Source of the DNA: Acidobacteriaceae bacterium
GTDB taxonomy: Bacteria > Acidobacteriota > Terriglobia > Terriglobales > Acidobacteriaceae
Direction of reading: 5' to 3'
Assembly: GCA_003151985.1 (NCBI GenBank)
Contig: PLZC01000070.1
Location: 239-44,206 of the forward strand
DNA length: 43,968 nucleotides
In this document: positions 1 through 42,521 of the stretch, piece after piece
How positions within the stretch are numbered: position 1 is the first letter of the stretch
Layout of the letters: every line of letters starts with the position of its first letter
The notes under the pieces: generated by a model
The model's input: the letters and a program-made list of their open reading frames with translations, nothing else
Told to the model about the DNA's origin: nothing
The model's database searches: none
Program-made: the position numbers and the translations under genes

Positions 1-1132
1 GCATCTGGCTGAAGTAGACAAGGCGCAGGGCTTCGGCGCGGCGGATGGAGCCTTCGGCTGGTTCGAGTTCGCCGCGCAGCAAGCGGAGGAGGGTAGTTTT
101 GCCACTGCCGTTGGGCCCGACGAGTCCGACCTTCATGCCCGCGGTGAGAATGAAATTCAGCCCCTCGAAGAGCCGGGGGCTCTTTTGATCTTTTGGACTC
201 GCTTCTGTGGGATCCAGGGTTGCCGGGACGTCGCAGGCGACATTGTCGAACTCGACCAGGCGTTTGCTCTTACGCATGCTGGCTTCAAAATCGATGCCCG
301 CGGAGTTGACGGTGGTGCGGGCGTCCATGGCAGCCAACTGTCCGATCATGGCGTTGGCCGTGTCGATGCGCGCTTTGGACTTTGTGGCGCGGGCCTTGGG
401 GCCGCGCCGCAGCCATTCAATCTCAGTCCTGACGCGATTGCGCAGGCTGTCCTGCTGCCGGCTCTGGGACTCGAGGTAGGCTTGTTTCTCTTCGAGGAAA
501 TGGCTGAAGTTGCCCTTCACGCGAAAAAGGCCGCCGGCAAAAACACGGTTCAGCTCGATAATCTCGCTTGAGGTGCTTTCCAGGAAGTAGCGGTCGTGGC
601 TCACCGTGACGGCGGCGAACGAGGAGGATGTAAGCAGCTCTTCCAGCCACTCGATGCCGGCCAGGTCGAGGTGGTTGGTGGGCTCGTCCAGCAGCATCAC
701 TTCAGGCTGGGAAACCAGCGCCTCGATAATAGCCAGCCGTTTGCGCCACCCGCCGGAGAGGGACGCGGACTCAACATTCAGATCTGCGAAGCCGGCACGC
801 CCGGCCAACTCGCGCAGGCGGCCTTCGCGCTCCGATTCGTTGACGTGCGCGGCCGCCAAGGCCTCTTCCAGCACTTGGCGGATCGTACGACCGCTGGCAA
901 AACGAGAATCCTGGGGCACGTAAGCGGCGCGGGCCCGCTTGCGCACCGCAAGTTCGCCCGAGTCCGGCTCAACCTGCCCCGCAAGGACGGCCAGCAGCGT
1001 GGACTTGCCGGCTCCATTCGGGCCGATCAGTCCGATGCGATCGCCGTCTTCCACAGTGAATGAAATCTCGAAGAACAGGGGAGTGGCGCCGAATTGTTTG
1101 GTTACGGATTGGGCATTGAGAATCGGGGGCAT
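1..1132 (-). CDS. ABC-F family ATPase (Uup/EttA-like), 3' end outside window
   Basis: Reading leftward from the ATG at 1132-1130 gives 377 codons open to the window edge, so the C-terminal part is missing; ABC-F proteins are usually 530-640 residues. Two ABC modules are visible: Walker A GPNGAGKST (residues 37-45), signature LSGGWRKR (125-132), Walker B with DEPTNHLDL (149-157), the charged inter-domain linker containing WLRRGPKARATK (240-251), and a second Walker A GPNGSGKTT (339-347). There are no membrane segments. The NHLDL box and the linker are diagnostic of ABC-F, cytosolic ribosome-associated ATPases that rescue or regulate translation. Uup versus EttA cannot be decided without the C-terminus. 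A purine-rich GGAAG lies just upstream of the ATG. It does not belong functionally to the sugar locus. Confidence 0.93.
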   Translation of the reverse strand, partial: MPPILNAQSVTKQFGATPLFFEISFTVEDGDRIGLIGPNGAGKSTLLAVLAGQVEPDSGELAVRKRARAAYVPQDSRFASGRTIRQVLEEALAAAHVNESEREGRLRELAGRAGFADLNVESASLSGGWRKRLAIIEALVSQPEVMLLDEPTNHLDLAGIEWLEELLTSSSFAAVTVSHDRYFLESTSSEIIELNRVFAGGLFRVKGNFSHFLEEKQAYLESQSRQQDSLRNRVRTEIEWLRRGPKARATKSKARIDTANAMIGQLAAMDARTTVNSAGIDFEASMRKSKRLVEFDNVACDVPATLDPTEASPKDQKSPRLFEGLNFILTAGMKVGLVGPNGSGKTTLLRLLRGELEPAEGSIRRAEALRLVYFSQM

Positions 1133-1215
1133 CTCTTCCAAGGGTACCGTGTTGGGGGCCGGCGATGCAGGTCATTCCCGCACAAGGCTGTTCGGTCTGG
1201 GCAGTAATCATCATC

Positions 1216-1424
1216 ATGACCGCAGCATCGGCTGGCATACGTTCCGGCACAGTTACCGTTCGTTGCTTAGCGAAGAAGAGACTCCGCTCGATGTCCAGCA
1301 GAAGCTGATGCGTCACGCGCACCTGTCGACCACTGAACAGTATGGCGGTCCGCCGATGGAGAACCGGCGCAAGGCGAACAGCAGGGTGGTGCGGCAAATC
1401 CTGTCTCGAAAGTCATCACGATAG
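1216..1424 (+). pseudogene. C-terminal fragment of a tyrosine recombinase (integrase remnant)
   Basis: The reading frame ending at the TAG 1422-1424 encodes about 70 residues of a phage-type integrase catalytic domain. The box GWHTFRHSYRS holds the H-x-x-R motif, the LMRHAHLSTTEQYG segment supplies the second conserved His, and its Tyr is the expected nucleophile. The N-terminal arm-binding, core-binding and first-Arg parts are absent: upstream the frame runs into the antisense of the ABC-F gene start. A full integrase is 300-400 residues, so this is a remnant. It points toward a tRNA 3' half about 75 bases downstream, the usual arrangement of an integrase beside its attachment site. Confidence 0.8.
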
Positions 1425-14029: not shown

Positions 14030-15724
14030 TCAAGGACGCGTAGCCATTGCTTTCGGTTCCACCGGGAGCGGAACTTCACTGGGAACCGGCGCAAAAATGG
14101 GATCGTCGCCGGCCCAGGGCACTTGGCAGGTTTTGCCCTGCTGGTATCGAGCCAGGTTCGGGCGCAAGACGCGTGCGAGATCGAATTGTCGCGAAGACTC
14201 CAGTTGCTGAATGATCGCTTGTTGATACCCGGCGGCTTCATGGAAGCGTCCGGCCGCCGCGAGAGCCATGGCCAGAGTGATTCCGACTTCCAAGGCGTCA
14301 CCCTGCTGATTGTTCACGAGGTTCTGGACGATGCTCAGCGCGCGGCTTTGATCGCGAACTGCCCGGTCTGGCGCTGCCGCAAGCAGCCTTGCCAGCGAGT
14401 TCGCGATGTCTGCATCAGTGGGAAATGCTGCAGCGGCATCCTCGAGCAGGGCCCGCGCCCGCGCGTACGACCCCGAGTGAACCGCGGCCATCGCCTGCAT
14501 CAAACGGGCCAATCCATTCTGGGGTTCAAGCGCGGCCACGACTCCATATTCGTGCTCGGCGTCGGCGTCCTTTCTCTCGCGCATGAGAAGATTGGCCAGT
14601 TGAAAGTGAGCCGCCACTAGTCCGGGATCCAAATTGAGCGCCCGCTGAAAATGGGAGATAGCCTCGGCCTCCTTTTTGGTTTCAATCAGCAACACCCCAA
14701 TGTCGTAGTGCACGGTGGCATTGTTCGGGTCGAGATCTAAAGAGTGCGCATATTCCTTCAGCGCTTCGTCAGGCTTGCCTGATCTGGCCAGGGCAAGTCC
14801 CATGTACTTGTAAGTGATCGGATCGGAAGGGTCGAGGCTGACCATCTGGCGATAGGCGGTAAGCGCGTCGGCGAAGCGATTGTCGCGCATGGCAGTTCCG
14901 GCACGTTCCAGCAAACCGAACTTGCCTTGTTTCAGGACGTTGATCTCGTCCAGCAAGGGATCCTGAATCGTGGGTTCCACGTCGCCGCGAGCCTGCAGTT
15001 GCTCCTGCATGCGAGCAAGATCGCCCAGACCGCGGTAAGTCATGGCAAGTTGATAGTGAATGCTGGAAGCCTGAGGCTCACGGGTCAGAGCTTCGGTGAA
15101 ATACTTCAGGGCGGCCGCGTACTGATGCTCGCGTAATGCGACCTTGCCCAATCCGATCAATGCGGCTGCGGAGGAATCTCGCTGAGCCATTGCTTTGGTG
15201 AACCACTGCCTGGCCGCATCGAGGTGATCCAGGGTGAGTTCCACGTTTCCCAAACGCAACAGAGCCGGATTATTGGTTGGCTGGAGAGCGAGGGCGTGCT
15301 GGTAGTCGCTTACCGCCGCCTCGGTATCGCCGTTCGTTTGGCGCAGATAGCCGGAGTAGTAAAACCAGCGGAAGGACTCAGGATCAAGCCGCGCGGCGTT
15401 GGCATAGCAAGACAGCGCAGCATCTTCAAAGCCGTAGGCCTGGTAAATCTGCCCGAGGTTGCCGAAAGCCTCGGCCCGGCGGGCGCGAGAAGCATCGGCG
15501 TGTGCCAGAGTGGCCGCCAATGCGATCTGCGAGGCGCGGATTTGTTCCTGCACGAAGGGGTCTACGCCTGTAAGGTCCGGTTGAGGAACCTCCAGCATAT
15601 CCACTTGGCCACTCGCAGCACGAGCAGGCGCGTTCTGCGCTGCGGAGAAGTCCGAATTCATGGCAATGCTCGCCGCAATTCCCGCGAACAGTGTCACAAC
15701 CATCGCATATCGAGCCCTGATCAT
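14030..15724 (-). CDS. Exported TPR-repeat protein paired with CRTAC1 protein
   Basis: A 564-residue protein with a signal peptide (residues 1-30) and many tetratricopeptide repeats from about 85 to 430 (for example DAALSCYANAARLDPES, EAISHFQRALNLDPG). No enzymatic domain is visible. The start ATG at 15724 overlaps the stop of the upstream CRTAC1 gene by ATGA, so translation is probably coupled. TPR plus CRTAC1/ASPIC-UnbV gene pairs are, from general knowledge, a recurrent Acidobacteriota and Planctomycetota combination of unknown role; scaffolding or protein interaction in the periplasm is likely. It is the last gene of the long minus-strand series. Confidence 0.85.
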   Translation of the reverse strand: MIRARYAMVVTLFAGIAASIAMNSDFSAAQNAPARAASGQVDMLEVPQPDLTGVDPFVQEQIRASQIALAATLAHADASRARRAEAFGNLGQIYQAYGFEDAALSCYANAARLDPESFRWFYYSGYLRQTNGDTEAAVSDYQHALALQPTNNPALLRLGNVELTLDHLDAARQWFTKAMAQRDSSAAALIGLGKVALREHQYAAALKYFTEALTREPQASSIHYQLAMTYRGLGDLARMQEQLQARGDVEPTIQDPLLDEINVLKQGKFGLLERAGTAMRDNRFADALTAYRQMVSLDPSDPITYKYMGLALARSGKPDEALKEYAHSLDLDPNNATVHYDIGVLLIETKKEAEAISHFQRALNLDPGLVAAHFQLANLLMRERKDADAEHEYGVVAALEPQNGLARLMQAMAAVHSGSYARARALLEDAAAAFPTDADIANSLARLLAAAPDRAVRDQSRALSIVQNLVNNQQGDALEVGITLAMALAAAGRFHEAAGYQQAIIQQLESSRQFDLARVLRPNLARYQQGKTCQVPWAGDDPIFAPVPSEVPLPVEPKAMATRP

Positions 15725-17466
15725 AGCGCGGATCTCGCGGTGCCGCTGCCCTCACGCAGCGTAGTGTATTTCCGCAACGGCAGGCCGGTCCATTCTTCGA
15801 CTCGTCCGCTGACCCAGTGGGCCTGAACCTTGGTGATTTCCGGCGCATCACCAAGCCCGAACAAGACACGCGGATCGCTTGAGGAACAATAACTGCCGTC
15901 GGTGTGGACGCGCCGCCACAGCGTGGGCGCGTCTCGCCGAAAAACAGCCACGCGCGTGCCAAGCATGTCGCGATGATATTTGTCTCCGACCATCCGGAAT
16001 CCGATCCACGGCTTGCGATGCCCCACGTTATTCATAAGCAGACGTGCGGGCCCGCTGTTGTTTACCACCACGACATCGATGCCTCCGTCGTTGTCGATAT
16101 CGCCAAACGCCGCGCCGCGGCCCACTTCCAAACGCGAAAACGCGCTTCCGGCACGACTGCTGACGTCCTCAAATCGTCCTTTGCCGTTGTTGTGCAACAG
16201 GAGGTTGGATTGGGCATACGGGTACAGGCTGCCCTTCCGGGCTTGCTCTTCAATAATTCTCACCGCTCCGTTGACTATAAACAGATCCAACCAGCCGTCG
16301 TTATCGTAGTCAAGCATGCCTACACTGAATCCTGTATCGCGCCGGGTGGCGAGAGCGATGCCGCTCTCGTAAGACATATCGTCAAACGATCCCTTACCGT
16401 CGTTGGAATACAGGTCGGCGTGTTGCCCGGCCATAGTAGGCACGACCAGATCCTCAAAGCCGCGGCCCAGCAGATCTCCGGCATCGACGCCCATGCTGGA
16501 TTGCGGATTTCCATCTCGATCCAGAGCGCAGCCCGCTATCAGCGCGTCGTTCTTGAAGGTTCCATCGTGCTGGTTGATCCACAGTTGATTGGGGCGAAAA
16601 TCATCGGAGACGAAGATGTCAGGCCAGCCGTCGCCATTGAAATCCGCGCAGACGACTCCCATGGCACCATTAAACTCGCCGCCGATTCCCGAACGTGTGG
16701 TCACGTCTTCAAACGTGCCATCGCGCCGGTTGCGGAACAGGCGATTGGGTATTGGGTTGTACTCCAGAGGACTGCAATAATCTACCGCTCCGCTCGGCGA
16801 GGAGCACCTCGTCAAATGGGTGAACCTGAAATCTATGTAGTTGGCAACGAAAAGGTCGAGCCAGCCATCCCGGTCATAATCGACGAAGGCAGCACAGATG
16901 CTCCAACCCGGAACGTCGGTGCCGGATTCTGTGGTGACATCGGTGAATGTGCCGTCCCCGTTGTTGCGCCACATTTGATTGTGGCCGAAATTCGTGATGT
17001 AGAGATCGACCCATCCGTCATTGTTGAAGTCCGCAGCCGTAACTCCCATGCCATATCCCTGGGCCCTGATCCCGCTTTCTTCCGTGACGTCAACGAACTT
17101 GAGCGTGCAAGTGCCATCGGCATTGTGGACAGAATCATTGCGGTAAAGCCGGCCACGCAGCGGCAACTGGGGATGAAATACGGCCTTGCTCACGTCCACG
17201 GGTCCCAACATTGCGCCCTGGACAATGAACATGTCGAGGTCGCCGTCGTTGTCGTAGTCGAAAAGCGCAACGCCCGACCCCATCGTTTCCGGATAAAAAT
17301 GAGACCCCGACATCCCGTTGAAATGAACAAAATCGATTCCGGCTTCTTTGGTTCGGTCGCTGAAGATCTCTTCCGGCGTCGGCGGAACGGCGAACGCAAT
17401 CCCACGACTGAGAGCCGTAGCTGCTCCCATCTTGACGAAGCCGCGGCGGCTGATGCGATCGCTCAT
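15721..17466 (-). CDS. Tat-exported CRTAC1-family protein (FG-GAP/VCBS repeats, ASPIC/UnbV)
   Basis: A 581-residue protein started at ATG 17466, because a Tat leader follows directly (SDRISRRGFVKMGAATALS); the open frame extends 35 codons further without signal features. At least six Ca-binding FG-GAP/VCBS repeats are visible, from DYDNDGDLDMF (about residue 70) through DFNNDGWVDLY, DYDRDGWLDLF, DFNGDGWPDIF and DYDNDGWLDLF to DIDNDGGIDVV. They form an integrin-like beta-propeller. The C-terminal about 80 residues match the ASPIC/UnbV module that follows such repeats. The role is probably binding or adhesion at the cell surface or in the periplasm. The ATGA overlap with the TPR gene indicates the two act together. 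Confidence 0.88.
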   Translation of the reverse strand: MSDRISRRGFVKMGAATALSRGIAFAVPPTPEEIFSDRTKEAGIDFVHFNGMSGSHFYPETMGSGVALFDYDNDGDLDMFIVQGAMLGPVDVSKAVFHPQLPLRGRLYRNDSVHNADGTCTLKFVDVTEESGIRAQGYGMGVTAADFNNDGWVDLYITNFGHNQMWRNNGDGTFTDVTTESGTDVPGWSICAAFVDYDRDGWLDLFVANYIDFRFTHLTRCSSPSGAVDYCSPLEYNPIPNRLFRNRRDGTFEDVTTRSGIGGEFNGAMGVVCADFNGDGWPDIFVSDDFRPNQLWINQHDGTFKNDALIAGCALDRDGNPQSSMGVDAGDLLGRGFEDLVVPTMAGQHADLYSNDGKGSFDDMSYESGIALATRRDTGFSVGMLDYDNDGWLDLFIVNGAVRIIEEQARKGSLYPYAQSNLLLHNNGKGRFEDVSSRAGSAFSRLEVGRGAAFGDIDNDGGIDVVVVNNSGPARLLMNNVGHRKPWIGFRMVGDKYHRDMLGTRVAVFRRDAPTLWRRVHTDGSYCSSSDPRVLFGLGDAPEITKVQAHWVSGRVEEWTGLPLRKYTTLREGSGTARSAL

Positions 17467-17683
17467 GACGTTGTTACCCGGAACTCCCTCACTGAACTCA
17501 AAAGCCGCACCTGATATCTCTCTGCCGGAGGTCGTCGGCACTGGCAAAACTCTCATCATCGCGATGCACACGGCGATTTCGCGTTCCGAGCCAACACGTC
17601 TAGAATAGCTCCCTTGTGGCGATTTGTTTTTGTATCGTTCTGAATTGCCTCCCGTTCAGATCTCCTTTCACCTGCTTCGCACT

Positions 17684-20597: not shown

Positions 20598-23086
20598 TCA
20601 ATGACTCTCGTTGTGCTCCTTCGGTTGATTCCAGGTTCCAACGAAACTGTGCTTGCCTGCAGGAATCGTCACGATGATTGCCCCGCCTTCTTCCATAGCG
20701 GGTTTTGTGGCGCGGCCATCAACCGTCATCGTCGTTGGCCTGCCCGCAAAATCGTGGATCGTCACATTGGCTGGCCTGACGGTGTCGATATTGAACGATA
20801 ACGAGACGGACTCCGAACGGTAGTCCCGGAACACCACTCCCGCGTTCGCTTCAATTTCCATTTTGCCGTCACGTTCGATTGCCGTTCGATTCGGTCCGAT
20901 CATGACTCTGTATTGATGGCGGTCCCATCGAACATTCGAAAGAACCGCCTCTTTGGGAGGATTCAAGGCGCCGAATCTCAGCCCATCCCAGGGAGTTTCA
21001 TCAATAAACTGTTCCAGCGGAATGAGGCACAATAGTGTTCCCCATGTGTAGTGAGGATCTCCGCCGGCGGTTCCACCCCATGGGGAGTAGTTTTCATCGC
21101 TGTGCTGGTTTCTCTGCCAATCGCTCTCAAACAGGTCATAGCTTTTCTCTGCGAATTCGAGTGCTGTCCCATCCTGACCGTAGCGATTGAGCCCTTCGTA
21201 GACCAGGTAATTTGTCGGACCCCAAATATCGCCGCGCCAGTAGTATTGCTCCTTGAACGCTGGGTCATTTCGCGAGATTGTCGGAATGACGTACTGCCCC
21301 CAGAATTCATCCGGATTCAGCAGGTGGCCTTTGATCATTCGTTCTGCTTGTTGTGGAGTCGCCACACCGGCAATCAACGGATAGAAGTTAGTCGGCGAGA
21401 GGCGTCTTGAGAATCGGCCGTCCCAGTAACGGTTTTCGAATATGCCGTCCTCGTCGTTCCACAACTTCTGGGTCGCTTGTTTTATCCGTAGTCAGCGGCG
21501 AAAACCCGCTGGTCTTCCGGCTTGCCCAGGATTTCAGCAATTTCCCCCATGCATTCTGAATCGAGCGCATAGAGAGCGCTCAATCCGACATCGTCAAGAT
21601 CCATCGTGTAGGTGCCCGGATCGAAGCGGACGTCATCGTACATTGGGCTGTCGTCCATGCCGCTTTCGTATTTGGCGGTCTGGAGATTGCCCCGCCCACC
21701 TAGTGCAGGCAGAGATCCTCGGTCGCTGCCCCACTCGAGCAGTCCATCGCGGTTTCCATCTCTCTCGGGTTGCCCATCACCGCGGTCGCGAAACCACCAC
21801 TCGTGCCATCGTTTCAGCCGAGGGTAGGCCCACTCAAGAAGATTCAGGTCCCGATTCTTCTCGTAGTTCTTCCACACAACATAGGAACCAACAGGGGGCT
21901 GAGAGCGATCGGGGCTTGAGCCCGATCCACCCACCACATTTGGTACAACGCCATCAGGACTTTGCGACCCCAGAATCGCACGCACCGCGGCTGAGCTCTG
22001 ATCCGCGTCCTCCAAGTTCGTCAGCAAAGCTCCAAAGAAACAATCCCACTCGCCAACCACCCACCCGCCGAAGATATGTGCCCATCTGCGACTGATGCTT
22101 GGAAATTCGAGATCGAGGGACGGCACATAGAGCGTGTTCCAAAACATTGTGTTGCCGATTGGATCGGCCGCACCACTGAATAGCCCCTCGACATGCGGCC
22201 GCGACTCTTCGTACCGCCTGGCATTGTGCTCCAGGATCTCGTCGATTCTGCCAGGAGCTAACAGGTCCTTTGCCCGGTTGGACAATTGCAGCGAATCCCA
22301 ACCCGCCGCAGCCACAAAATGGACCCGCGAGCCGTCTTGTCCTTCAATCTCAATGCCGGCCGCGCCATTGAGCTCAGCGTCGCCGATTCGATCGGCTTCT
22401 GTGTCCGACGTGACGGCGTGCTGGCTGTTTGCATTTGTCAAATCGCCCGCATCCATCAGTGCTCGAATCTGCGCCACGTCATGAAAGGTCGCAGCCCCAA
22501 GAAGAGGACGATCGGCTCGCACAAGGAAACGGGCGGCGGTGCCAATGTGGCCGTCGATGTAATGCGCGCCGTCAATCTCGCTCTTGTCTGCCCCTGTATG
22601 GAACAGTGCCGTGGACGATGCTTCAAAGGGAGAATACGCCTCGATCACCAGGCGTGTTCCGGAGCGGGCAGTCAGCCGGCCAACAACCGTGGTTTCGTCA
22701 ACTCGTGCCCACTCCAGAGTAATGGGCGAAGTTTGCGGCGCGTGTCGCCAGCTCACCGATGCGTAGGAACTATCCGGCGCATGGGGCCCTACCGCGTCTA
22801 CGGCTTCAAAGACGCGATCTCCATCAATGAACGATCCGCTCTTTGATCCCACCCGGATCGCAAACGTAAGCCGTTCGTTATAAGCCGTACCGTCGAAAAC
22901 AATGCCATTCCACGCGTCCGGATCGAATGCTCCGACATGGATTGTGTCGAATTTGTCCTTTGATTTTTGAGCGTGCCCTGCAAGATTGGGCGCAGCGATG
23001 AGCATTACGAGAATGAACTGAATCAGCGTCTCGTGACCGCGAGAATGATTACGACCAACCATGATCTTCAGCCGCGTTATCTTCAT
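20598..23086 (-). pseudogene. GH63-like (MGH1-type) glucosidase/mannosidase gene, one-base frameshift
   Basis: Two adjacent frames encode one enzyme. The upstream part starts at ATG 23086, overlapping the GH92 stop by ATGA, has a signal-like N-terminus, and ends at TAA 21484-21482 after VFAADYG. The downstream part continues without loss in the next frame (IKQATQKLWNDEDGIFENRYWDG) to the stop at 20598. The reading is restored by adding one base near TACGGATAAAACAAG (about 21476-21490), giving about 829 residues. Family signs are the (alpha/alpha)6-barrel motifs EWDCFFGALLTN, ENYEKN-type helices, SGMDDSPMYDD, and in the second part YYWRGDIWGPTNYLVYEGL and NYSPWGG. Such enzymes trim alpha-glucosides or alpha-mannosides of N-glycan-like structures. 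Either a true inactivating deletion or a sequencing error. Confidence 0.85.
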
Positions 23087-25383
23087 TTCATTGCTTCTCC
23101 CGACATCGACGGCGGTGCATCTGCCAGAGCGCTTCCCCACTGCTTGTTGGGGTGGTCGCCCATTTCGAGAACAAGAGTTCCGCCATGGTCAATTTCAGAG
23201 TGTAAAAACCATGGCCTGCGAAGCGGCTTCCCATTCAGAGTGGCTGACTGGATGTACTTGTTCTGAGCCGATACGCGATTGGCGACGATGGTAAATTCCT
23301 TGCGGTTGCCCATGCGAATGACCGTTTTGGCGAAAATAGGGCTGCCGATCTCATAGACCGGACTGCCGGGGCAGACCGGATAGAAACCCATGGCGCTCAA
23401 CACATACCAGGATGACGTTGCGCCGCCATCGTCATCGCCTGGGATTCCCAGCGGACCGTCTCCGTACCAGACATCCATGAGCTGGCGCACTCGCCGCTGA
23501 GTCTTCCATGGCTGCCCGGAAAAATCGTAGAGATAGGGGATATGGAAGCTCGGTTCGTTGCCCTGCGCATACAAGCCGATCAAGCCGGTTGCATCAGGGA
23601 ACTGGCCGAGAAATTCATATTTCGAGTTACCATACTGCTCGACAAACAGTTGGTCGAGCTTTGCATTGAATTGATCGCGACCGCCAAAGAGCCGGATCAA
23701 ACCGGCGACATCGTGTTGCACTCCGAAGGTATAAATCCATGCGTCGACCTCGGTAAAATAATCGCGGCCGCCCAGTCCGCCACCTCGCTTTGGATCGAAA
23801 TGCGCAACCCATTCACCATCTTCGCTGCGAGGGGCCATAAAACCAATCCTGGGATCGAAGACGTTTTGATAATTCGTCGCGAGCTTCTTGAAATAGGCGA
23901 CATCCTGCCCCTTGCCAAGCGCGCCGGCTAACTGCGCAACCGCCCAGTCGTCGTAGCTGTTTTCGATCGTAACGGAGACCCCTTGGCGACGTTCCCAGCC
24001 AACCTGCGGTATGGTCTCCTTCTCGCCCCATGCCAAGGCTGGAAAGAACCCTTTATCCAAGTAAACCCGATCGACGCTCGTGAGCGGCCCGCGGCTCCAT
24101 GGGATCATAGTTGCCTCTGTAGCGTTCTTGCGCATGGCAGAGTACGCTTTATCGACATCAAAGTCGTGATAGCCTTTGGCAAACGTGTCAAGAATCAACT
24201 GAGCCGCATGATGACCGATCATTACTGCTTGCTCCCCCGCCACGGAGGGGAATGAAGGCAACCATCCGCTTTGCTCATACATGCAGAGATACGAGCGAAC
24301 CATGTCCTCCTGCTGATGCGCATTGAGAAGGAGTTGGAGCGGATGCAGCGATCTGTATGTGTCCCACAAGCCGTCGTCGACATAAAAGTCGTGTCCATCC
24401 GCGTCGTGGACGGCATGATCGTAGCCGCTGAAGTAACGGCCATCCTCGGTTATATCTGTCATGCGGCCAAGCGAGCGGTAAAGAGCGGTGTAGAAAATGG
24501 TGCGCTGGCGATCGCTTCCACCTTCGATCCGGATGGCGCCTAATGCTCGATTCCAGGCGGTGCGGGCCGCGGCCTTGACACCGTCGAAATCCCATCGAGG
24601 AATCTCCCGATCCAGGTTACGGTGCGCCTGTTCGACACTTATATAAGAGAGGCCAACCCGAACGCCGACCTGCTCCCCAGGAGTTGTGGCTCGGTCTGCG
24701 ATGAACTCGACATGGTCGCCGGATATTTCCTTATCGTGCACAACCTTTCCATCTTTCAAAGTTTGCCAGGAACTCAGCGGCGTCGAAAACTCTGCATAAA
24801 AATATGCTCTCGTTTCCTTTCCCGTCTCCGGAGCCGGGCCAATCGGCGGATCGACCCTCTCGCTACCTCCGACCTCGCTGTCGCCAAAGACAATCAGATT
24901 GGCCTTCTTTGTGAGACTCAACAGGAGCTGCGAATGTTTACCGGCGGGATAAGTGAACCGGTAATATGCCGATTCCGGCGTCGCGGTCAGTTCAGCCTTG
25001 ATTCCCCAGGTGAGGAGATCTGCCTCGTAGTAATAAGGCGTCGACACTTCAAAGTCGTGATCAAATTCCGATGCGAAATCATCGGGAACAGTACTGACCT
25101 GTCCTTCGGAGGCCATCAGAAGCGCCGGCCCGGCTGGAAAACCAAATATCTTGTCTGCGAGATATCGGTCCGTAATCCCCGGCGTTGTAACCGGGGCAAG
25201 GCTGGCCATGCCATGCGGATATTGAACCAGCGGAATGGTCGCGGAAAGTAACTGGCCGATGGTGCCAATGTTCGGTGCAATGTAATCGACAGGTTCTTTC
25301 ACACGCTGCGTAGTTCCTGATAGGGTAACGCCGGCAAGAGTGCCCAACATAACCAACGCAACTACCTTTTGCCTCGTGGTCAT
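23083..25383 (-). CDS. Exported GH92 alpha-mannosidase
   Basis: A 766-residue protein from ATG 25383 (an in-frame ATG at 25416 is also possible; both leave a hydrophobic leader MTTRQKVVALVMLGTLAG). GH92 features are an N-terminal beta-sandwich beginning VDYIAPNIGTIG and an (alpha/alpha)6 barrel with FYTALYRSLGRMTDITEDG, LWDTYRSLHPLQLLL and the C-terminal hallmark DDDGGATSSWYVLSAMGFYP. GH92 enzymes are calcium-dependent inverting exo-alpha-mannosidases acting on alpha-1,2, alpha-1,3 or related mannosides. Length fits the family (700-780). Its stop codon overlaps the GH63-like start by ATGA, implying translational coupling of two alpha-mannoside or N-glycan trimming enzymes. Confidence 0.93.
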   Translation of the reverse strand: MTTRQKVVALVMLGTLAGVTLSGTTQRVKEPVDYIAPNIGTIGQLLSATIPLVQYPHGMASLAPVTTPGITDRYLADKIFGFPAGPALLMASEGQVSTVPDDFASEFDHDFEVSTPYYYEADLLTWGIKAELTATPESAYYRFTYPAGKHSQLLLSLTKKANLIVFGDSEVGGSERVDPPIGPAPETGKETRAYFYAEFSTPLSSWQTLKDGKVVHDKEISGDHVEFIADRATTPGEQVGVRVGLSYISVEQAHRNLDREIPRWDFDGVKAAARTAWNRALGAIRIEGGSDRQRTIFYTALYRSLGRMTDITEDGRYFSGYDHAVHDADGHDFYVDDGLWDTYRSLHPLQLLLNAHQQEDMVRSYLCMYEQSGWLPSFPSVAGEQAVMIGHHAAQLILDTFAKGYHDFDVDKAYSAMRKNATEATMIPWSRGPLTSVDRVYLDKGFFPALAWGEKETIPQVGWERRQGVSVTIENSYDDWAVAQLAGALGKGQDVAYFKKLATNYQNVFDPRIGFMAPRSEDGEWVAHFDPKRGGGLGGRDYFTEVDAWIYTFGVQHDVAGLIRLFGGRDQFNAKLDQLFVEQYGNSKYEFLGQFPDATGLIGLYAQGNEPSFHIPYLYDFSGQPWKTQRRVRQLMDVWYGDGPLGIPGDDDGGATSSWYVLSAMGFYPVCPGSPVYEIGSPIFAKTVIRMGNRKEFTIVANRVSAQNKYIQSATLNGKPLRRPWFLHSEIDHGGTLVLEMGDHPNKQWGSALADAPPSMSGEAMK

Positions 25384-27537: not shown

Positions 27538-30500
27538 TTACCACTCGAACCGCGCGGCGAGCTGGCCCACGCGAGATGAATATTGCATATTCGGCGCCCA
27601 GGAGACGCCCGTTACGTAACCGAACGTCCCGCTGTTGGGGTTGGTATCCGGACCGTTGAAGTAATGGCGGTTAAACGCGTCGTAAAACTCCGCGCGCAAC
27701 TGGGCCTGATAGCGGCCTTCTTTCCCGATGCCGAAGTGCTTTACAACGCTGATGTTTTCCGCCGCCGGAAACTGGTTCCAGCGCCACTTGTTGAAGGTGC
27801 GCGGCGTGTCGCCAAAGAAGTTGTCATTGTTGTAGTACCAACTCGAGCTCCTTTGGACAATGGTTGGGTCAAAGGCGGAATTACCCGCGGCGATGGTGTT
27901 GGCAGGATTGAAGTTTTTCTGGAAGTGGTTTCTGATGTTGTTGGCATTCGCGCCATTGGCGAAGGCGGCCCTTTGATTCCCCCCAAAGTAATAATTCAAC
28001 CCGTAGGGGGAACCAATTCCACCAATCGGCGTGCCGGTGCCGTAGGCGCCATAATAGGCCAGGCTCCAGCCGCCCACGACGTAGTCCGCCGCCCGCGACT
28101 GGTTCAGCCACTTCTGGTGTAACCCCAGGGGCAGGTCGTACGTCGCGTATCCTTTGGCCAACTGCCTTTGGTCATCCGTCACCACCCACATCGTGTTGTC
28201 GTTCCCACTCTGCCGGTTTGAGCCCCATACATTCGAGAAGTTGGTGGGCGCGCCCCAGCCTACCGACGTGCTGTTGGATGTGTACTTCGAGAGGGTATAG
28301 CTCCAGTTGACGTAGAGCCCGTGGGCATTGCGGATCTTCAACTCGGCAACAACGGAGTTATAGTTGCTGGCTGCGGTATAGGCCGTATTGCCGGCAATTT
28401 CGAGCTTGCCACCGGTTACCGCCAGTTGAGGATAAGGCGCAATGGCAGCACGGGCCGGCCCTGAGAAACCGCTATAGGGGAATGGCACCGTGGCTCCGCA
28501 CTGCGCAGAGAGGGCCGCGGCATCGCCGGCGCTGCCGATTGTCTTACCGGTCATATCGCCAATGCCCAACGGGTTCGCCGCGGATGTGGCGACCGCCCCT
28601 GGACACTTCAACAAAGAGTGGTACGCGCCCCACTGCGGCCAGCTTACGTCGTATCCCTGTCCGAAGTCTTGCAGTCCCCTGCCAAAGGTGCCCAAATAGC
28701 GGGTATCGAGCACCATGCCCTTGGAGAGTTGCCATTGAACTCCGGCATAGAAGGTGTGTGTCCGGCCCAACTTCAGGAAGTCGGGGTCGACATACATCTC
28801 TGTGCCGCCCGTATGATCGCCGAAGGTAGTAGCGGTGCTGTTATGCACCGGCTGAACCGGCTTCGGGTAAGCGGTATCCCATTGGATGGCCTTTTCGCCT
28901 ACCGCATTGCCGGCTGGAGTCAAGCTTTCTGTCGCGGTGTTCAGCGGATCCTGGGTGGCTGGGCGATAGTCGTCGGCGCCGGAACTGAAGACGCCGAGCG
29001 GCACGTAGGTCAGAGAGTACGAAACGCGAGCCACTAGCTTGGGCGTAATGGAATAGGCAGCGCCAAGGTGTGGACCAAACTGGTCAAGCGGGACGTTCTT
29101 TTCGAAAGTAGTGCCGGCGCCATTCGAGAAGACCCATGCGCCCCCATACGGAGCCCAGTTGGGATTGACGACGTGGGGGTCGAAGTTTTCCCACGCGCCG
29201 TTGCCCATATGGCCGGGCATCGTGATATCCCAGCGCAGGCCCAGGTTCAAAGTGAGCTTGGGGTTGACTTTGAAATCGTCCTGTGCGAAGAAGGCCGTGT
29301 ATTTCTGCCGCGGATTGTAGCTATTGGCCCCATAGAGATTGGACGAATGCACATTTCCCATCAGCATTTCCGCAAAGCCGTTGCCCACGTAATTTGACAC
29401 CGCCGGATCGGTGGCGCCGTAAGTCTGGTTGCTGAAGGAGTAATCGTTGTTGACCAGATCGTAGTTGGACGAATTTTGCTGCTGCGCCGTCCATTGCCAT
29501 CCGAATTTGACGCTGTGGCGGCCCTTCTGCCACATCAGCGAATCCGCGGCGTTGTAGGAGTTGAAGTTCATGTGGAGATTCCAGTTTTGGCCAAAAGCGG
29601 AGAATCCCACGCCATTCGAGCCCGTCATGCCAACATACGGAAAAATCTTCTGACCGGTGCTAAAGCCGTAACTATCGGCGTTAACAGGGTTCACCGGCAG
29701 TTGCTCCGAGCGGTTCAGATTCCAGGACGCAGAGAAAGTGTTGATGAGCGTCGGCTTGATCGTGTAGTTGTCGACAACGCGGGCCATCATGTCGCTGTGA
29801 TCCCCTTGTCCAAACCAGCCGCTCCATGGCCCCGCGATCGACGAGCTGAAATTCAGCGGAGAGTCGTTCTCGTCGGTCTGCAAGTTGTACGATGCGCTGA
29901 TGTGATGCCGCTCAGAGAAGTTGTGGTCGCCCTTTACATCGACTCTCCGCTTCCAGAACTTGCTGGCTCCGCTGTACGACGGAAAGTTGCCGCCGATGAG
30001 ACGGTTCACGGGTGCCTGCTGAGAGAGATACTTGCTGTATATGGATGCAATGTTCTTGCCGATGCCACTGACTAGAGCGTCAGGCACCAGGTTCCCGGGC
30101 AAGGGTGATGCGCATTGGAGCGTCGCATTCCATGTCCTCGGATCGTAGACCTCCCCGTAGTTATAAGGCGCGCCGGTGCAGGGGTTCGTTGTACCTGCGA
30201 CGGGGCCCGAATTTGCGCCCATGGTGAGCAGCGGGCTGAGGTCGTAGGAGCCATTGCTGTCCGTCACCATTTGCGGCAGCGGAACCGTGAGACCGGTCGG
30301 AGTGGTGGTGAGGTTGCTTTGACCGTAGTATTCATAGTCGCCAAAGACAAAGGTGTGATTCTTCCATATGGGGCCGCCCGCGCTGCCACCGTAGTCGTTG
30401 AAACGGAACCTCTGCCGGCCATTCTGCCGCAGGCAGGCGGTGTCCCCGGCGGCGCACTGAGCCCTATAGTAGTTGTTGGTCCATTGATTCGCGTTGAAAT

Positions 30501-31293
30501 CCTCGTTCTGCATGTATTCAAACGCCGAGCCATGGATCTTGTTGGTGCCCGACTTGAGCACATAGACGATTGCTCCGCCGCCGGTCTGTGACAGCTCGGC
30601 GTCGGTGACGTTGGTTTGGAGTTGCATCTCCTGGAGGGCGTCCTGGCCCGGTGTAATGGCCTGTCCCTGGTTTCCCGCTGTGGCATTGGTGCCGTCGATG
30701 TAGACGGAGTTGGTGAAGGTTTCGCCGCCCGCGATCGACATCCAGTTTTGAGTTCCTGAGCTCCCGATAGAAGAAGCCCCGTTGGTCAAAGTAACGTTCG
30801 GAGCTGTGAGGGCCAGAAGGAACAGTGCATTCCGGCCGCCATTGGCGTTCAACGGCAGTGCCTCAATCGCCGTTGGTTCCAAGGTCATCGCTTCGGATTC
30901 GTTTTGCGCTTCTACTTCCGGTGTTCCGGTCACCGTCACGGTCTCCGACGCCGCGCCAACCTTCATTGCAATGTTCGCCGTGATCACCTGGCCCGCAACT
31001 GGCGAGATCCCGATCTGCGTGTAGGTCTTGAAACCGGCAAGGCTCACGTCGAGCCTATATTCACCCACGGGCAGGCCTGGGATCGTGTAAACCCCTTCCC
31101 CGTTCGTCGGGGTTGTGAAGACTGCATTGGTGCCGACATTTGTTGCTGTGACGGTAGCCCCGGGCAGAACGGCTCCTGCCGGGTCTTTCACTGTCCCCGT
31201 TATTGTTGCTCGATCGGTTTGGCTATGCGCCAGAATTCCAATCGACAAGAGAACGAACAGCAAACTGAACAATCTGTTTCTGGTTTGTCGCAT
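27538..31293 (-). CDS. Oar-like TonB-dependent outer-membrane receptor
   Basis: A 1251-residue protein from ATG 31293, chosen because GAGGAGGGG precedes it by about eight bases and a signal peptide follows (RLFSLLFVLLSIGILAHS). Residues 30-110 are a carboxypeptidase-regulatory-like beta domain (ITGTVKDPAGAVLPGATV). Then come a plug domain (LPLNANGGRNALFLLALTAP...) and a 22-strand-type barrel with many aromatic beta strands, ending QLAARFEW with a terminal aromatic residue as required for BAM insertion. No SusD-like lipoprotein gene accompanies it, typical of Acidobacteriota Oar-type receptors. It probably imports oligosaccharides released by the neighbouring enzymes, powered by TonB-ExbBD encoded elsewhere. 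A terminator follows, and a regulator gene is divergent. Confidence 0.92.
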   Translation of the reverse strand: MRQTRNRLFSLLFVLLSIGILAHSQTDRATITGTVKDPAGAVLPGATVTATNVGTNAVFTTPTNGEGVYTIPGLPVGEYRLDVSLAGFKTYTQIGISPVAGQVITANIAMKVGAASETVTVTGTPEVEAQNESEAMTLEPTAIEALPLNANGGRNALFLLALTAPNVTLTNGASSIGSSGTQNWMSIAGGETFTNSVYIDGTNATAGNQGQAITPGQDALQEMQLQTNVTDAELSQTGGGAIVYVLKSGTNKIHGSAFEYMQNEDFNANQWTNNYYRAQCAAGDTACLRQNGRQRFRFNDYGGSAGGPIWKNHTFVFGDYEYYGQSNLTTTPTGLTVPLPQMVTDSNGSYDLSPLLTMGANSGPVAGTTNPCTGAPYNYGEVYDPRTWNATLQCASPLPGNLVPDALVSGIGKNIASIYSKYLSQQAPVNRLIGGNFPSYSGASKFWKRRVDVKGDHNFSERHHISASYNLQTDENDSPLNFSSSIAGPWSGWFGQGDHSDMMARVVDNYTIKPTLINTFSASWNLNRSEQLPVNPVNADSYGFSTGQKIFPYVGMTGSNGVGFSAFGQNWNLHMNFNSYNAADSLMWQKGRHSVKFGWQWTAQQQNSSNYDLVNNDYSFSNQTYGATDPAVSNYVGNGFAEMLMGNVHSSNLYGANSYNPRQKYTAFFAQDDFKVNPKLTLNLGLRWDITMPGHMGNGAWENFDPHVVNPNWAPYGGAWVFSNGAGTTFEKNVPLDQFGPHLGAAYSITPKLVARVSYSLTYVPLGVFSSGADDYRPATQDPLNTATESLTPAGNAVGEKAIQWDTAYPKPVQPVHNSTATTFGDHTGGTEMYVDPDFLKLGRTHTFYAGVQWQLSKGMVLDTRYLGTFGRGLQDFGQGYDVSWPQWGAYHSLLKCPGAVATSAANPLGIGDMTGKTIGSAGDAAALSAQCGATVPFPYSGFSGPARAAIAPYPQLAVTGGKLEIAGNTAYTAASNYNSVVAELKIRNAHGLYVNWSYTLSKYTSNSTSVGWGAPTNFSNVWGSNRQSGNDNTMWVVTDDQRQLAKGYATYDLPLGLHQKWLNQSRAADYVVGGWSLAYYGAYGTGTPIGGIGSPYGLNYYFGGNQRAAFANGANANNIRNHFQKNFNPANTIAAGNSAFDPTIVQRSSSWYYNNDNFFGDTPRTFNKWRWNQFPAAENISVVKHFGIGKEGRYQAQLRAEFYDAFNRHYFNGPDTNPNSGTFGYVTGVSWAPNMQYSSRVGQLAARFEW

Positions 31294-31578
31294 CCCTGGA
31301 CCCCTCCTCAACCGCTTTTGGTTTGTGTTAATTGGTTGCATTTCGCACTATTTTCCCGCTCCGACCGATCCGCCTGCCGACAGTACTCTTGATCGAGCGC
31401 TTGCCGGTTTGCTTTCGGCCGCTACGGGAGCGTATCTTGATGATCGGAGCAAGGATGAGGATGAAACTCTGTTCTGGGAAGTTCCCTTGATGTTTCATAG
31501 AGTTAAGAAGACTTCCAGGGAACACGTTACGAAATCTAAGCGATTGACTATAAAAGTTTTAAGACGGTTGTTATCACT
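31294..31578. promoter_or_regulatory. Divergent promoter region, receptor (-) and regulator (+)
   Basis: 285 bases between two divergent genes. It includes a perfect inverted repeat GGGAAGTTCCC (31476-31486) and a further half-site GGGAAC (31518-31523). A TTGACT hexamer at 31544 is close to the regulator start, but no good -10 is placed properly. The regulator ATG has no Shine-Dalgarno just upstream, so it may be leaderless or weakly translated. Confidence 0.5.
31476..31486. promoter_or_regulatory. GGGAAGTTCCC inverted repeat, candidate operator
   Basis: Perfect 5-1-5 palindrome about 90 bases before the regulator ATG and 185 before the receptor start; a third half-site lies at 31518-31523, 42 bases from the first. 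Binding by the adjacent winged-helix regulator is a guess. Confidence 0.35.
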
Positions 31579-32865
31579 ATGTTAAATGCGCCCCGGCCGC
31601 GAAGTGAAAACGGCGAATCCGTGGACTCAGACGTTTGCCTCGCCGGGGTTGAGCGTTTGGTGAATAGCCGGCTTCTGTCGGGTTCCGATGCGCTCTGCAA
31701 GCTTCTTCAGTTCCTGGCTCACCACACACTCAATTCGCCTTCGGAACACGTAAAGGAGTATGAGATCGCGACACAGGTCTTCGGTCGGCGGTCCGATTTC
31801 GACCCGCAGGCTGACTCCGGGGTTCGCGTCCAGATGGGGCGTTTGCGCACCAAGCTCGCGGAATACTACCAAACAGTTGGCATCGATGACCCAATTCAAG
31901 TAGACCTGCCCAAGGGCAGTTATTCTCTCACGTTTCGGCAAAGAGTCATTGAGCCAAACCTAAACTTAGTGGAAATGAATGCGCCACCCCCCTTTGAGAA
32001 ACCGGCTGAAACGAGGGGTAGAGGTGCTTTGACCATCGCCATTGCAGCGCTTGCCGGCGCCCTCTTGATCGTCGCGATCCTCGTCTACATTTCACTTCGC
32101 CGGCCATCTGGGCTCGACGGTTCGAGCGGCCAGGCAACTCAAGCTCCATCTGCTGCGCTTAAGACCTTTTGGGGACCATTTCTCCAGGGTTCGCAATCGC
32201 CGTTTGTTGTCTTCAGTAATGCGCTGTTTGTCGGGAACGCTGTCACAGGTATGCGATATTTCGACCCTGCCCGCGATTCCCGCGATCAAATCTCACAGCA
32301 TTACACCGGCGTCGGCGAAGTAATGGGGGTGGAGGAACTCGAGGGTCTGTTCCTGCACATGGGACGGCAATTTGAAGTTAAAAGAGGCGGGTTGTTCACT
32401 TTCGACGATGCCCGCAAAAGTAACCTGATTTTCGTGGGTTCTCCAACAGAGAATCTTACGCTGGATGAAATTCCGAACACCAGTGGATTTGTCTTCAGAC
32501 AACTGCAAGTGGGAAAGAATGACCGGGTTCAGGGGGTGGTCGATTTGCGGCCACGGCCCGGCGAGAGTGCTACATATCTGCCTACACCTGGGTCGAAACC
32601 ACTGCAAGTCGATTACTCCGTCATCACCTTAGCACATGGCCTCGATCATTCCCGATGGACGCTTATTCTCGCCGGGGCCTCAACGGTTGGCACCCAAGCC
32701 GCCGTCGACTACACCTGCGATCCGGACTCGATTCAAGATCTCCTTCACCGGCTGAGTATACCTCTCGGCTCAGGGATGAAATCCTTTGAAGCGTTGCTGC
32801 GGGTCAAGGTCGCAAACGACGTCCCTCTCACCGTTGAATTGGTAAAAATCCGAAGCACAGAGTGA
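31579..32865 (+). CDS. Membrane-anchored winged-helix transcription regulator
   Basis: A 428-residue protein. Residues about 20-120 form a DNA-binding domain of the winged-helix type common in Acidobacteriota regulators (LLQFLAHHTLNSPSEHVKEY; RVQMGRLRTKLAEYY; VDLPKGSYSLTF). One transmembrane helix follows (about 150-172, ALTIAIAALAGALLIVAILV), with Arg-rich DNA-side flanks. The remaining 250 residues would be periplasmic and have no recognised domain. The layout is that of CadC/ToxR-type one-component regulators: sense outside, bind DNA inside. Being divergent from the TonB receptor, it is the obvious local regulator of the locus. No Shine-Dalgarno stands before the ATG; a GTG at 31621 is an alternative start. 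Confidence 0.8.
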   Translation: MLNAPRPRSENGESVDSDVCLAGVERLVNSRLLSGSDALCKLLQFLAHHTLNSPSEHVKEYEIATQVFGRRSDFDPQADSGVRVQMGRLRTKLAEYYQTVGIDDPIQVDLPKGSYSLTFRQRVIEPNLNLVEMNAPPPFEKPAETRGRGALTIAIAALAGALLIVAILVYISLRRPSGLDGSSGQATQAPSAALKTFWGPFLQGSQSPFVVFSNALFVGNAVTGMRYFDPARDSRDQISQHYTGVGEVMGVEELEGLFLHMGRQFEVKRGGLFTFDDARKSNLIFVGSPTENLTLDEIPNTSGFVFRQLQVGKNDRVQGVVDLRPRPGESATYLPTPGSKPLQVDYSVITLAHGLDHSRWTLILAGASTVGTQAAVDYTCDPDSIQDLLHRLSIPLGSGMKSFEALLRVKVANDVPLTVELVKIRSTE

Positions 32866-41663: not shown

Positions 41664-42521
41664 ATGAAGACAGTTAACCTCACCATCGCAGGCAGCTGCA
41701 CCGGCGATCCCGGCCGCGGCGGCTGGGCCTTCATCCTCCGGATGGGCGAGCATTCAAGGGAGCGCACTGGCGGTTCCCCGCAGACCACCAAAGGCCAGAT
41801 GGAACTCAACGCCGTCATAGAGGGCCTCAAGGCCCTCCGGGAGAGTTGTCAAGTCTATCTCTTCAGCGACAATCAGCATCTGCTCGATGGCATCGAATAC
41901 CGGCGCGAGGAGTGGCGGCGCACTTTGTTTACCAGGGTGCATAAGCGTTTGCCGCATCCTCTCCCCGATGGCGACCTGTGGAGGGAATTGGACCCGCTCG
42001 CTGATAAGCATCAGATCTGGGGTCGGTGCATCGTTGGACACGATGGCCATCCAGATATGGAACGATGCGAACAGTTGGCAGAATCGCAGGCCGGGCTTTA
42101 TGCAGGTGACAGGTGCGAGTCCAGCCATGCCGCCAAGGTTGCCATCACTGGCAACCAGGCCCGGCGGGGGATTGAAGCCGAGGAGCGCAGTCCGGAATTG
42201 CTAGGCTGTATTGACCGCTTTGGCGATCTTGAACTGGCTGATCGTGGCTGGCAGATCGTTCCGCAAGGCATGCACTATCGGATCGGTAAGCTCACGCTAA
42301 TCCATGGTGACCAGATTGGAGGCGCTTACGGCGCCGGCGTCATGCCAAGCAGGAAGACTACCGAGATATTCCAGAGCAGCTGCAAGGCCACGCTCACAGT
42401 CCTCATCATTCTGCCGGATCAGTCCCGTCAATCAACGACAGAAGCAAATGGGTTACCTTCCTCAACTGACTTCTGCCGAAGAAGCTCAGATGGAATCTCT
42501 CAACCCGAAGGGTCCAGATGA
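41664..42521 (+). pseudogene. Chimeric, decayed RNase H - metallophosphoesterase gene
   Basis: Residues 1-145 are an RNase HI domain (GDPGRGGWAFILRMGEHSRE, QMELNAVIEGL, LFSDNQ, GHDGHPDMERCEQLAE). Glu47 and Asp69 of the catalytic set remain, but the first Asp is Ala9 (AGSC instead of DGSC) and the last carboxylate is Glu136 instead of Asp, so activity is doubtful. From about residue 160 the sequence becomes the C-terminal half of a phage-type phosphoesterase (TGNQARRG in place of GNHExR; PELLGCIDRFGDLELADRGW; YRIGKLTLIHGD). Its final part, including QGHAHSPH, continues in another frame after about 42335. The phosphoesterase N-terminal metal motifs are missing. Two genes were apparently fused by deletion and then frameshifted. 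Confidence 0.65.

Follow-up and report, generated by a model that had tools for sequence, protein, structure and literature searches.

The DNA analysed here is a 43,968-nucleotide stretch from an Acidobacteriaceae bacterium (positions 239 to 44,206 of contig PLZC01000070.1, assembly GCA_003151985.1), which we refer to as the window. The window is a sugar-degradation gene cluster from a soil bacterium of the acidobacterial class Terriglobia. Within it, a gene encoding a TonB-dependent receptor (27538–31341, minus strand) is divergent from a gene encoding a membrane-anchored one-component regulator of 428 aa (31579–32865, plus strand), an arrangement that had been predicted from the sequence alone (the original prediction). 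Both open reading frames (ORFs) are complete. The gap between them is 237 bp when measured from the longest receptor ORF (1267 aa). A Shine-Dalgarno-like run, GGAGGGG, lies 7 nt upstream of the second Met of the receptor (31293), and we therefore preferred this Met as the likely true start. The shared divergent promoter region (31294–31578) is then exactly 285 bp, the length originally proposed and a better figure than 237.

Predicted architecture of the receptor and the regulator

The receptor is of the Oar-like OMP_b-brl_4 type with an N-terminal CarboxypepD_reg domain. It matched the Pfam models PF25183 (OMP_b-brl_4) at 431 bits, against a cut-off of 30, and PF13620 (CarboxypepD_reg) at 76 bits. 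Up to E 1, it matched no STN domain in Pfam and none of the NCBIfam families, and thus no SusC-type NCBIfam model. The receptor had been described as lacking SusD, which agrees with the absence of PF07980 matches from the draft genome (6 Mb, 73% complete); a Bacteroides control genome does match. The proposed glycan context is borne out by the carbohydrate-active enzymes (CAZymes) that profile searches found in the window, with ORFs of the glycoside hydrolase (GH) families GH2, GH94, GH27, GH16, GH92 and GH43 and others that are GH13-like, MGH1/GH63-like and GH127-like.

The regulator had been likened to CadC, with a cytoplasmic winged helix, one transmembrane helix and an outer domain, and this layout is supported by the predicted structure. 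The full-length AlphaFold2 (AF2) model (pLDDT, the predicted local distance difference test, 77; pTM, the predicted template modelling score, 0.58) comprises a helix-and-wing domain at residues 17–121 (31627–31941, plus strand), a helix at residues 149–173 (32023–32097, plus strand) and an alpha/beta outer domain. Structural alignment of the first domain (VIA) gave matches to PrrA (Z 7.9; root-mean-square deviation, rmsd, 3.6 over 89 residues), SaeR (7.2), PhoB-DNA (1gxp, 6.6) and CadC (5ju7, 6.3). These are the matches expected for a predicted OmpR/PhoB-type winged-helix fold, with every Z falling under the caution line of 8. By sequence, the regulator reached only 13 bits against Trans_reg_C (PF00486), under the cut-off of 26.2, and at E 0.01 none of 48 regulator-family members matched a Pfam DNA-binding domain, histidine kinase domain or receiver domain. 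No sigma domain was found in the regulator up to E 1, and no separate search was made for an anti-sigma domain. A PDB sequence search with the family profile returned two marginal sorting-nexin matches only. The modelled membrane helix coincides with the hydropathy maximum; the best 19-residue hydrophobic window starts at residue 153, with a mean hydropathy of 2.9. The strongest hydrophobic window lay at residues 115–235 in 45/46, 13/13, 40/40 and 28/28 proteins of four family sets. The predicted layout, in which one chain holds a DNA-binding domain, a membrane helix and an extracytoplasmic domain, is that of a transmembrane transcription regulator.

The outer, putatively periplasmic domain (residues 190–428; 32146–32862, plus strand) had been described as an unrecognised domain of about 250 residues. 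The size was about right, at ~240 residues, but the predicted fold can be recognised. Folded alone, the domain was modelled confidently by AF2 (pLDDT 87.5, pTM 0.87). Its best fold match (VIA) was BcsB (Z 12.3, rmsd 3.3, 164 residues aligned), followed by N-terminal domains of GH67 alpha-glucuronidases (10.8), GH115 (10.1), an archaeal S-layer anchor (9.8) and GH84 (9.1), then by three further enzyme entries (7.5–7.4) and a match at 5.8. Against the BcsB, GH67, GH115 and GH84 domains, Z ranged from 12.3 to 8.7 at 9–16% identity. BcsB holds carbohydrate-binding-like and flavodoxin-like domains, according to excerpts of PMC11379886, and the predicted fold of the sensor domain corresponds to the flavodoxin-like domain of BcsB and to the GH67 N-domain. 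The likeness to BcsB is one of fold only, because no BcsB match by sequence was found in the 48 regulators (Pfam, E 0.01), which gave two single DUF matches only. The periplasmic domains of CadC and ToxR were absent among the fold matches listed, which does not exclude them.

Recurrence of the receptor-regulator pair

We compared the locus with several sets of regulator relatives. The first comprised 40 regions chosen as full-length-looking from a longer match list, plus 8 others. A first held-out set consisted of 40 high-scoring matches to the family profile, picked from a longer list of their own in genomes that had not been used before; 23 of the 40 had a qualifying divergent ORF. A second held-out set contained 28 new loci from the window's own clade (45–50% identity), found with the window protein. 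Locus L250, whose start is uncertain, was excluded from the promoter alignment. L096, in which the frame is apparently broken, was excluded from the protein sets, and its promoter region includes some coding DNA. L086 (G102:C48), a relative whose reading frame contains one TGA and one TAG, is apparently broken as well and was excluded from the alignments.

It had been allowed that the regulator might prove to be unlinked to receptors elsewhere, which is not what we found. A receptor-like ORF lay divergent from the regulator within 1 kb in 31/46, 9/13, 20/40 and 28/28 loci of the four sets. This amounts to 88 of 127 rows when pooled, or 85 of 124 distinct loci (L038/L097, L093/L231 and L095/L233 were each counted twice). 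The loci scored as having no receptor include some with little upstream DNA, namely L223 (370 bp) and L088. In three loci (L101, L102 and L103), receptor and regulator share a strand, with the receptor downstream, and in L092 the two are convergent. By Pfam, 30 of 48 divergent ORFs were OMP_b-brl_4 proteins. Seven regulator loci were found in the window's own genome with the window protein; by coordinates, five face a receptor, one (C385) is separated from its receptor by a gene, and one (C419) lacks a receptor.

The family is widespread in the class. Near relatives had a regulator match at E 0.001 or better in 45 of 60 genomes. The family profile gave a match of at least E 1e-60 quality in 167 of 299 genomes of the class, where five candidates were scored per genome, so that the matches per genome are a lower bound. 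The window regulator protein itself had a match at E 1e-30 or better in 112 of 398 family genomes. Among 66 loci from named public genomes, 14 matched near full length, all with acidobacterial titles, and the remaining 52 matched the N-terminal part only (to residue 254 at most) and came mostly from Alphaproteobacteria (Devosia, Bosea), with some from Acidobacteria. The DNA-binding domain is therefore widely shared, and the full layout is seen in Acidobacteriota. In the individual loci from Devosia, Bosea and others (L105–L156), the regulator's N-terminal domain was found and the outer domain was unmatched.

Regulator and receptor distances were correlated across 81 pairs, including two duplicate loci (Mantel r 0.69, with a permutation maximum of 0.19), and r was 0.39 at regulator identities below 40%. 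Such a correlation is also predicted by common descent of linked genes. A scan of 10 chosen neighbouring ORFs in relatives found CAZymes beside several pairs, of kinds that varied from locus to locus: GH38, GH31 and GH92 at L090, a cyclomaltodextrinase and GH77 at L094, a trehalase and GH127 at L093, and an MGH1-like protein at L095. The sole ORF scanned at L099 was an FG-GAP protein. No similarity emerged from two direct comparisons between L090 enzymes and enzymes of the window.

Boxes and palindrome in the shared promoter region

Six GTT boxes lie in the shared region or at its regulator end, every one on the regulator strand. A distal tandem array (31481–31506, plus strand) consists of GTTCC (31481), GTTTC (31492) and GTTAA (31502) at spacings of 11 and 10 bp, and aligns with the array GTTTC-N5-GTTTG-N5-GTTAC of the orthologs. 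A single GTTAC box (31526–31530, plus strand), identical in the 68% ortholog L091, lies 44 bp before a proximal pair, GTTAT-N6-GTTAA (31570–31585, plus strand; boxes at 31570 and 31581, 11 bp apart). The proximal pair overlaps the start codon of the regulator (31579–31581) and is found at the same place in L091, L094, L095 and L096. In the window and its orthologs, the box spacings include 10–11 bp and 44–45 bp. Between L091 and the window, GAGTTAA is kept at 7/7 positions, GTTACG at 6/6 and GTTAAA at 6/6.

In the 48 intergenic regions of the first set, GTTA[AC] occurred 110 times, compared with 53.3±7.7 in dinucleotide shuffles, and same-strand pairs occurred ten times at 11 bp, compared with 0.04 in shuffles, and three times at 12 bp. 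The motif was discovered in this set and was hence checked on the held-out sets. The regulators of L231 and L233 in the own-clade set are identical to those of L093 and L095, so these two loci were dropped and the counts repeated on 26 unseen orthologs. We found 107 GTTA[AC] motifs (46.2±6.9 in shuffles), ten 11-bp same-strand pairs in nine loci (0.10, maximum 2 in 1000 shuffles) and sixteen 45-bp pairs (0.08), in loci that are related to one another (median regulator identity 0.57, closest 0.89) and so are not independent events. The ortholog alignment has the triple GTTTC-N5-GTTTG-N5-GTTAC distally and TGTTAC-N6-GTTAA over the start codon. The distal triple is present in 21 of 28 ortholog loci, starting 82 to 72 bp upstream of the start codon, and GTTAC lies within -25 to +5 of the regulator start in 26 of the 28 (24 of 26 once duplicates are removed). 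A less strict version of the triple arose in 0 of 2000 shuffles of the window region. All box patterns other than GTTA[AC]-N6-GTTA[AC] were defined after seeing the sequences, and their counts are descriptive.

The original prediction drew attention to a palindrome, GGGAAGTTCCC (31476–31486, no strand), and a third half-site (GGGAAC, 31518–31523), both of which are present. It also envisaged that the palindrome would be conserved between the divergent pairs of relatives; this holds for L091 but not further afield. L091 keeps 10 of the 11 bases and has a second GGAAGTTCC at -289, and the 20-base block containing the palindrome (-105 to -86) is the best conserved between the two regions (90%, vs 61% overall). 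These features would suit an operator made of the palindrome and the extra half-site, an inverted repeat recognised by a dimeric regulator in the manner of CadC. Exact 5-1-5 palindromes, for example CGTATNATACG, also occurred about twice as often as expected in two broader sets (42 vs 20.4±4.9 in 48 loci and 18 vs 7.9±2.6 in 23 loci), and inverted sites may therefore serve elsewhere in the family. However, GGAAnTTCC was found in 0 of the 28 further orthologs, where the head-to-tail GTTAC boxes are conserved instead, and 5-1-5 palindromes were not enriched there (14 vs 12.3). Some exact 5-1-5 palindrome arises in 23% of shuffles of the window region, and the palindrome taken alone is weak evidence. 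Its right arm, GTTCC (31481–31485), can also be read as the first of the three tandem boxes. As an operator used across the family, the palindrome was rejected; in the window and L091, we consider it an unlikely alternative.

CGTATNATACG recurs in the promoters of family regulators at L058, L064, L068, L098, L099, L206, L212 (just inside the gene) and L214. This sequence and TAAGGTCCTTA are examples of possible clade-specific boxes elsewhere in the family.

The GTTAC boxes could also be sites of another factor or promoter elements, with the neighbouring regulator acting elsewhere. The tie between protein and boxes is an indirect one, boxes are absent near more distant paralogs, and the proximal pair overlaps the gene start, where conservation may partly reflect coding sequence. 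On the other hand, the boxes track this regulator clade and sit at both genes in a rearranged locus (G074). The receptor of this locus, at 70% identity, is oriented convergently to the regulator, which has a tRNA-Val gene on its upstream side. Two GTTAC boxes 11 bp apart precede the receptor ORF (L090 8473/8484, minus strand), and the very beginning of the regulator gene holds a GTTAA/GTTAC pair. PhoB-type domains bind head-to-tail repeats at 10–11 bp spacing, which suits the boxes, and PhoB-DNA 1gxp was among the fold matches. We therefore regard a role for another factor as rather improbable.

A possible sugar-uptake switch and its relation to known systems

We consider it fairly probable that the receptor and the regulator form a self-contained sugar-uptake switch, in which a one-component glycan sensor, like SusR in its logic but composed of other domains, binds PhoB-style repeats at its own promoter and at that of the receptor. 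The pairing probably lets these bacteria turn on the importer that fits a given sugar once that sugar is present. Building on the gene pairing, domain layout, fold matches and conserved boxes of the ortholog clade computed here, we infer the following scheme for ligand, box binding, activation and autorepression. Through the receptor, an oligosaccharide from the CAZyme cluster around it would enter the periplasm. The regulator, in the inner membrane, would sense that oligosaccharide or a product of it with its BcsB/GH67-N-like outer domain. Its cytoplasmic OmpR/PhoB-like winged helix would bind the head-to-tail GTTAC-type boxes 10–11 bp apart in the shared promoter. The distal array lies towards the receptor, and its occupancy would most likely raise transcription of the receptor. 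The proximal pair over the start codon of the regulator would most likely limit the regulator's own synthesis.

Several observations weigh against this scheme. Among the 40 class-wide members, 20 lack a receptor gene that diverges from them within 1 kb. For the 13 next-nearest regulators listed (45–49%), the adjacent receptors show only 24–34% identity to the window receptor, and their ligands therefore probably differ. The fold match of the outer domain, with Foldseek E-values of 2.4e-3 at best, shows no function, and we know of no BcsB flavodoxin-like domain that acts as a sugar sensor. The window boxes are degenerate (GTTCC, GTTTC, GTTAT), the strict GTTA[AC]-N6-GTTA[AC] is absent there, and the middle box GTTTC is kept at only 3/5 positions in L091. 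The 23 class-wide regions of the first held-out set, largely from other subfamilies, showed no enrichment of GTTA[AC] (23 vs 25.8) and contained no 11- or 12-bp pair of it. We therefore rejected GTTA[AC] as a family-wide operator and kept it for the window's own clade only.

The signal could also be something other than a sugar, with the outer domain sensing the receptor, the TonB system or the state of the envelope. A fold match does not show ligand binding, and the co-divergence of regulator and receptor is what physical contact would also give. However, the fold relatives are sugar-linked (BcsB, GH67, GH115, GH84), the genes stand in a CAZyme context, and the receptor has no STN signalling domain, which makes a signal of this kind doubtful. 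Pairing by chance, in genomes as full of such receptors as this one (66 OMP_b-brl_4 matches), was rejected as highly improbable, because ~66 receptors among roughly 5,000 genes (an estimate for a 6 Mb genome) would give ~1% divergent neighbours, far below the 85 of 124 distinct loci observed.

The sugar-uptake switch would differ in several respects from the known ways of controlling glycan importers. The original prediction saw a logic different from that of hybrid two-component systems (HTCS) or sigma/anti-sigma control. This holds in that the regulator has no histidine kinase, receiver or sigma domain and the receptor has no STN domain, as would be found in extracytoplasmic function (ECF) sigma/anti-sigma transducer systems, but it overlooked SusR, which follows the same logic. 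In excerpts of PMC3878776, SusR, a third type of control in Bacteroidota, is presented as a membrane protein that senses in the periplasm and binds DNA through a cytoplasmic domain. It binds maltose in the periplasm and activates the sus operons, its DNA-binding domain is C-terminal, SusR-like proteins have predicted direct-repeat sites, and it is described as confined to Bacteroidetes (PMC3878776). Like the SusR-like regulators of Bacteroides (starch, dextran), the window regulator is predicted to be a one-piece membrane protein that senses in the periplasm, binds DNA in the cytoplasm and acts, here by inference, on a TonB-type glycan importer. Unlike in SusR, the winged helix here is N-terminal, the sensor is predicted to be BcsB/GH67-N-like, and no SusD was found. 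The regulator is not a member of the SusR group, because the domain order is reversed. A SusC/SusD importer is not indicated, with no SusD partner found in the 73%-complete genome and no NCBIfam match of the receptor.

CadC and ToxR share with the predicted layout of the regulator an N-terminal OmpR/PhoB-like winged helix, one transmembrane helix and a C-terminal outer domain, but the outer-domain matches here are BcsB and GH67-N and no Pfam Trans_reg_C match was found in 48 members. CadC uses head-to-head sites, according to excerpts of PMC5430869, whereas the conserved ortholog boxes are head-to-tail, and the predicted site layout is therefore PhoB-like; the window also has the inverted repeat kept in L091. 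The predicted fold and the direct-repeat sites of ~11 bp resemble those of PhoB/OmpR effector domains. Unlike the PhoB/OmpR response regulators, the protein has no receiver domain, is predicted to be membrane-tethered and falls under the Pfam cut-off by sequence. The predicted fold that the outer domain has in common with BcsB and the N-terminal domains of GH67, GH115 and GH84 is here fused to a DNA-binding domain.

A wider reading, which we put forward only tentatively, is that an undescribed family of one-component glycan sensors extends across the class Terriglobia. In each member, the BcsB/GH67-N-like domain would read an oligosaccharide from a dedicated receptor, and the membrane-held PhoB-like winged helix would switch on that receptor via subfamily-specific repeated boxes. 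Such a family would be an acidobacterial counterpart of SusR and HTCS and the first use of this fold as a sensor. Acidobacteriota rank among the most abundant bacteria in soil and may encode dozens of such receptors, as the 66 matches in this genome illustrate. If the reading is true, the outer domain of each regulator offers a means of assigning a ligand to the receptor next to it, and the conserved boxes allow the idea to be tested directly. In the open-licence literature, represented mostly by titles and abstracts, we found no paper on the regulator family and no description of the matching of individual acidobacterial receptors to substrates, and the available parts of PMC3174227 and PMC7074687 make no mention of the family. 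A survey of transmembrane transcription regulators found Acidobacteriae to be somewhat enriched and relied on Pfam DNA-binding models, as far as its excerpts describe (PMC10269533). It probably missed most of this regulator family, because 0 of 48 members match such models. Pfam-based surveys of membrane regulators thus probably undercount this phylum.

Other features of the window include ribokinase-like, FG-GAP and TPR proteins found by profile searches, and GH39-like and DUF4185-like matches that score under the Pfam cut-offs. FG-GAP/UnbV_ASPIC proteins recur beside receptor-regulator pairs (window 14030–17571, minus strand, together with a TPR protein; L093 8412–10184; L099 7456–9213). Two minus-strand ORFs, 20598–21464 and 21482–23140, match parts 7–200 and 217–355 of an MGH1-like GH profile and resemble a split gene. 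Near the ends of the window lie a weak, sub-cut-off phage-integrase piece (939–1424, plus strand, 24.5 bits) and an RNase H gene (41664–42521, plus strand). An Rfam scan of the window gave no matches at gathering score. Upstream of family regulators at L058, L064, L068, L071 and L077, we found a conserved G+C-rich stretch (GCGCCCC ... GGGGCGAGGAGCCGCAATCACAAGAAA) that resembles a structured RNA, with no Rfam match at gathering score. An Acido-Lenti-1 RNA was found at L071 (9037–9081, minus strand, 43 bits).

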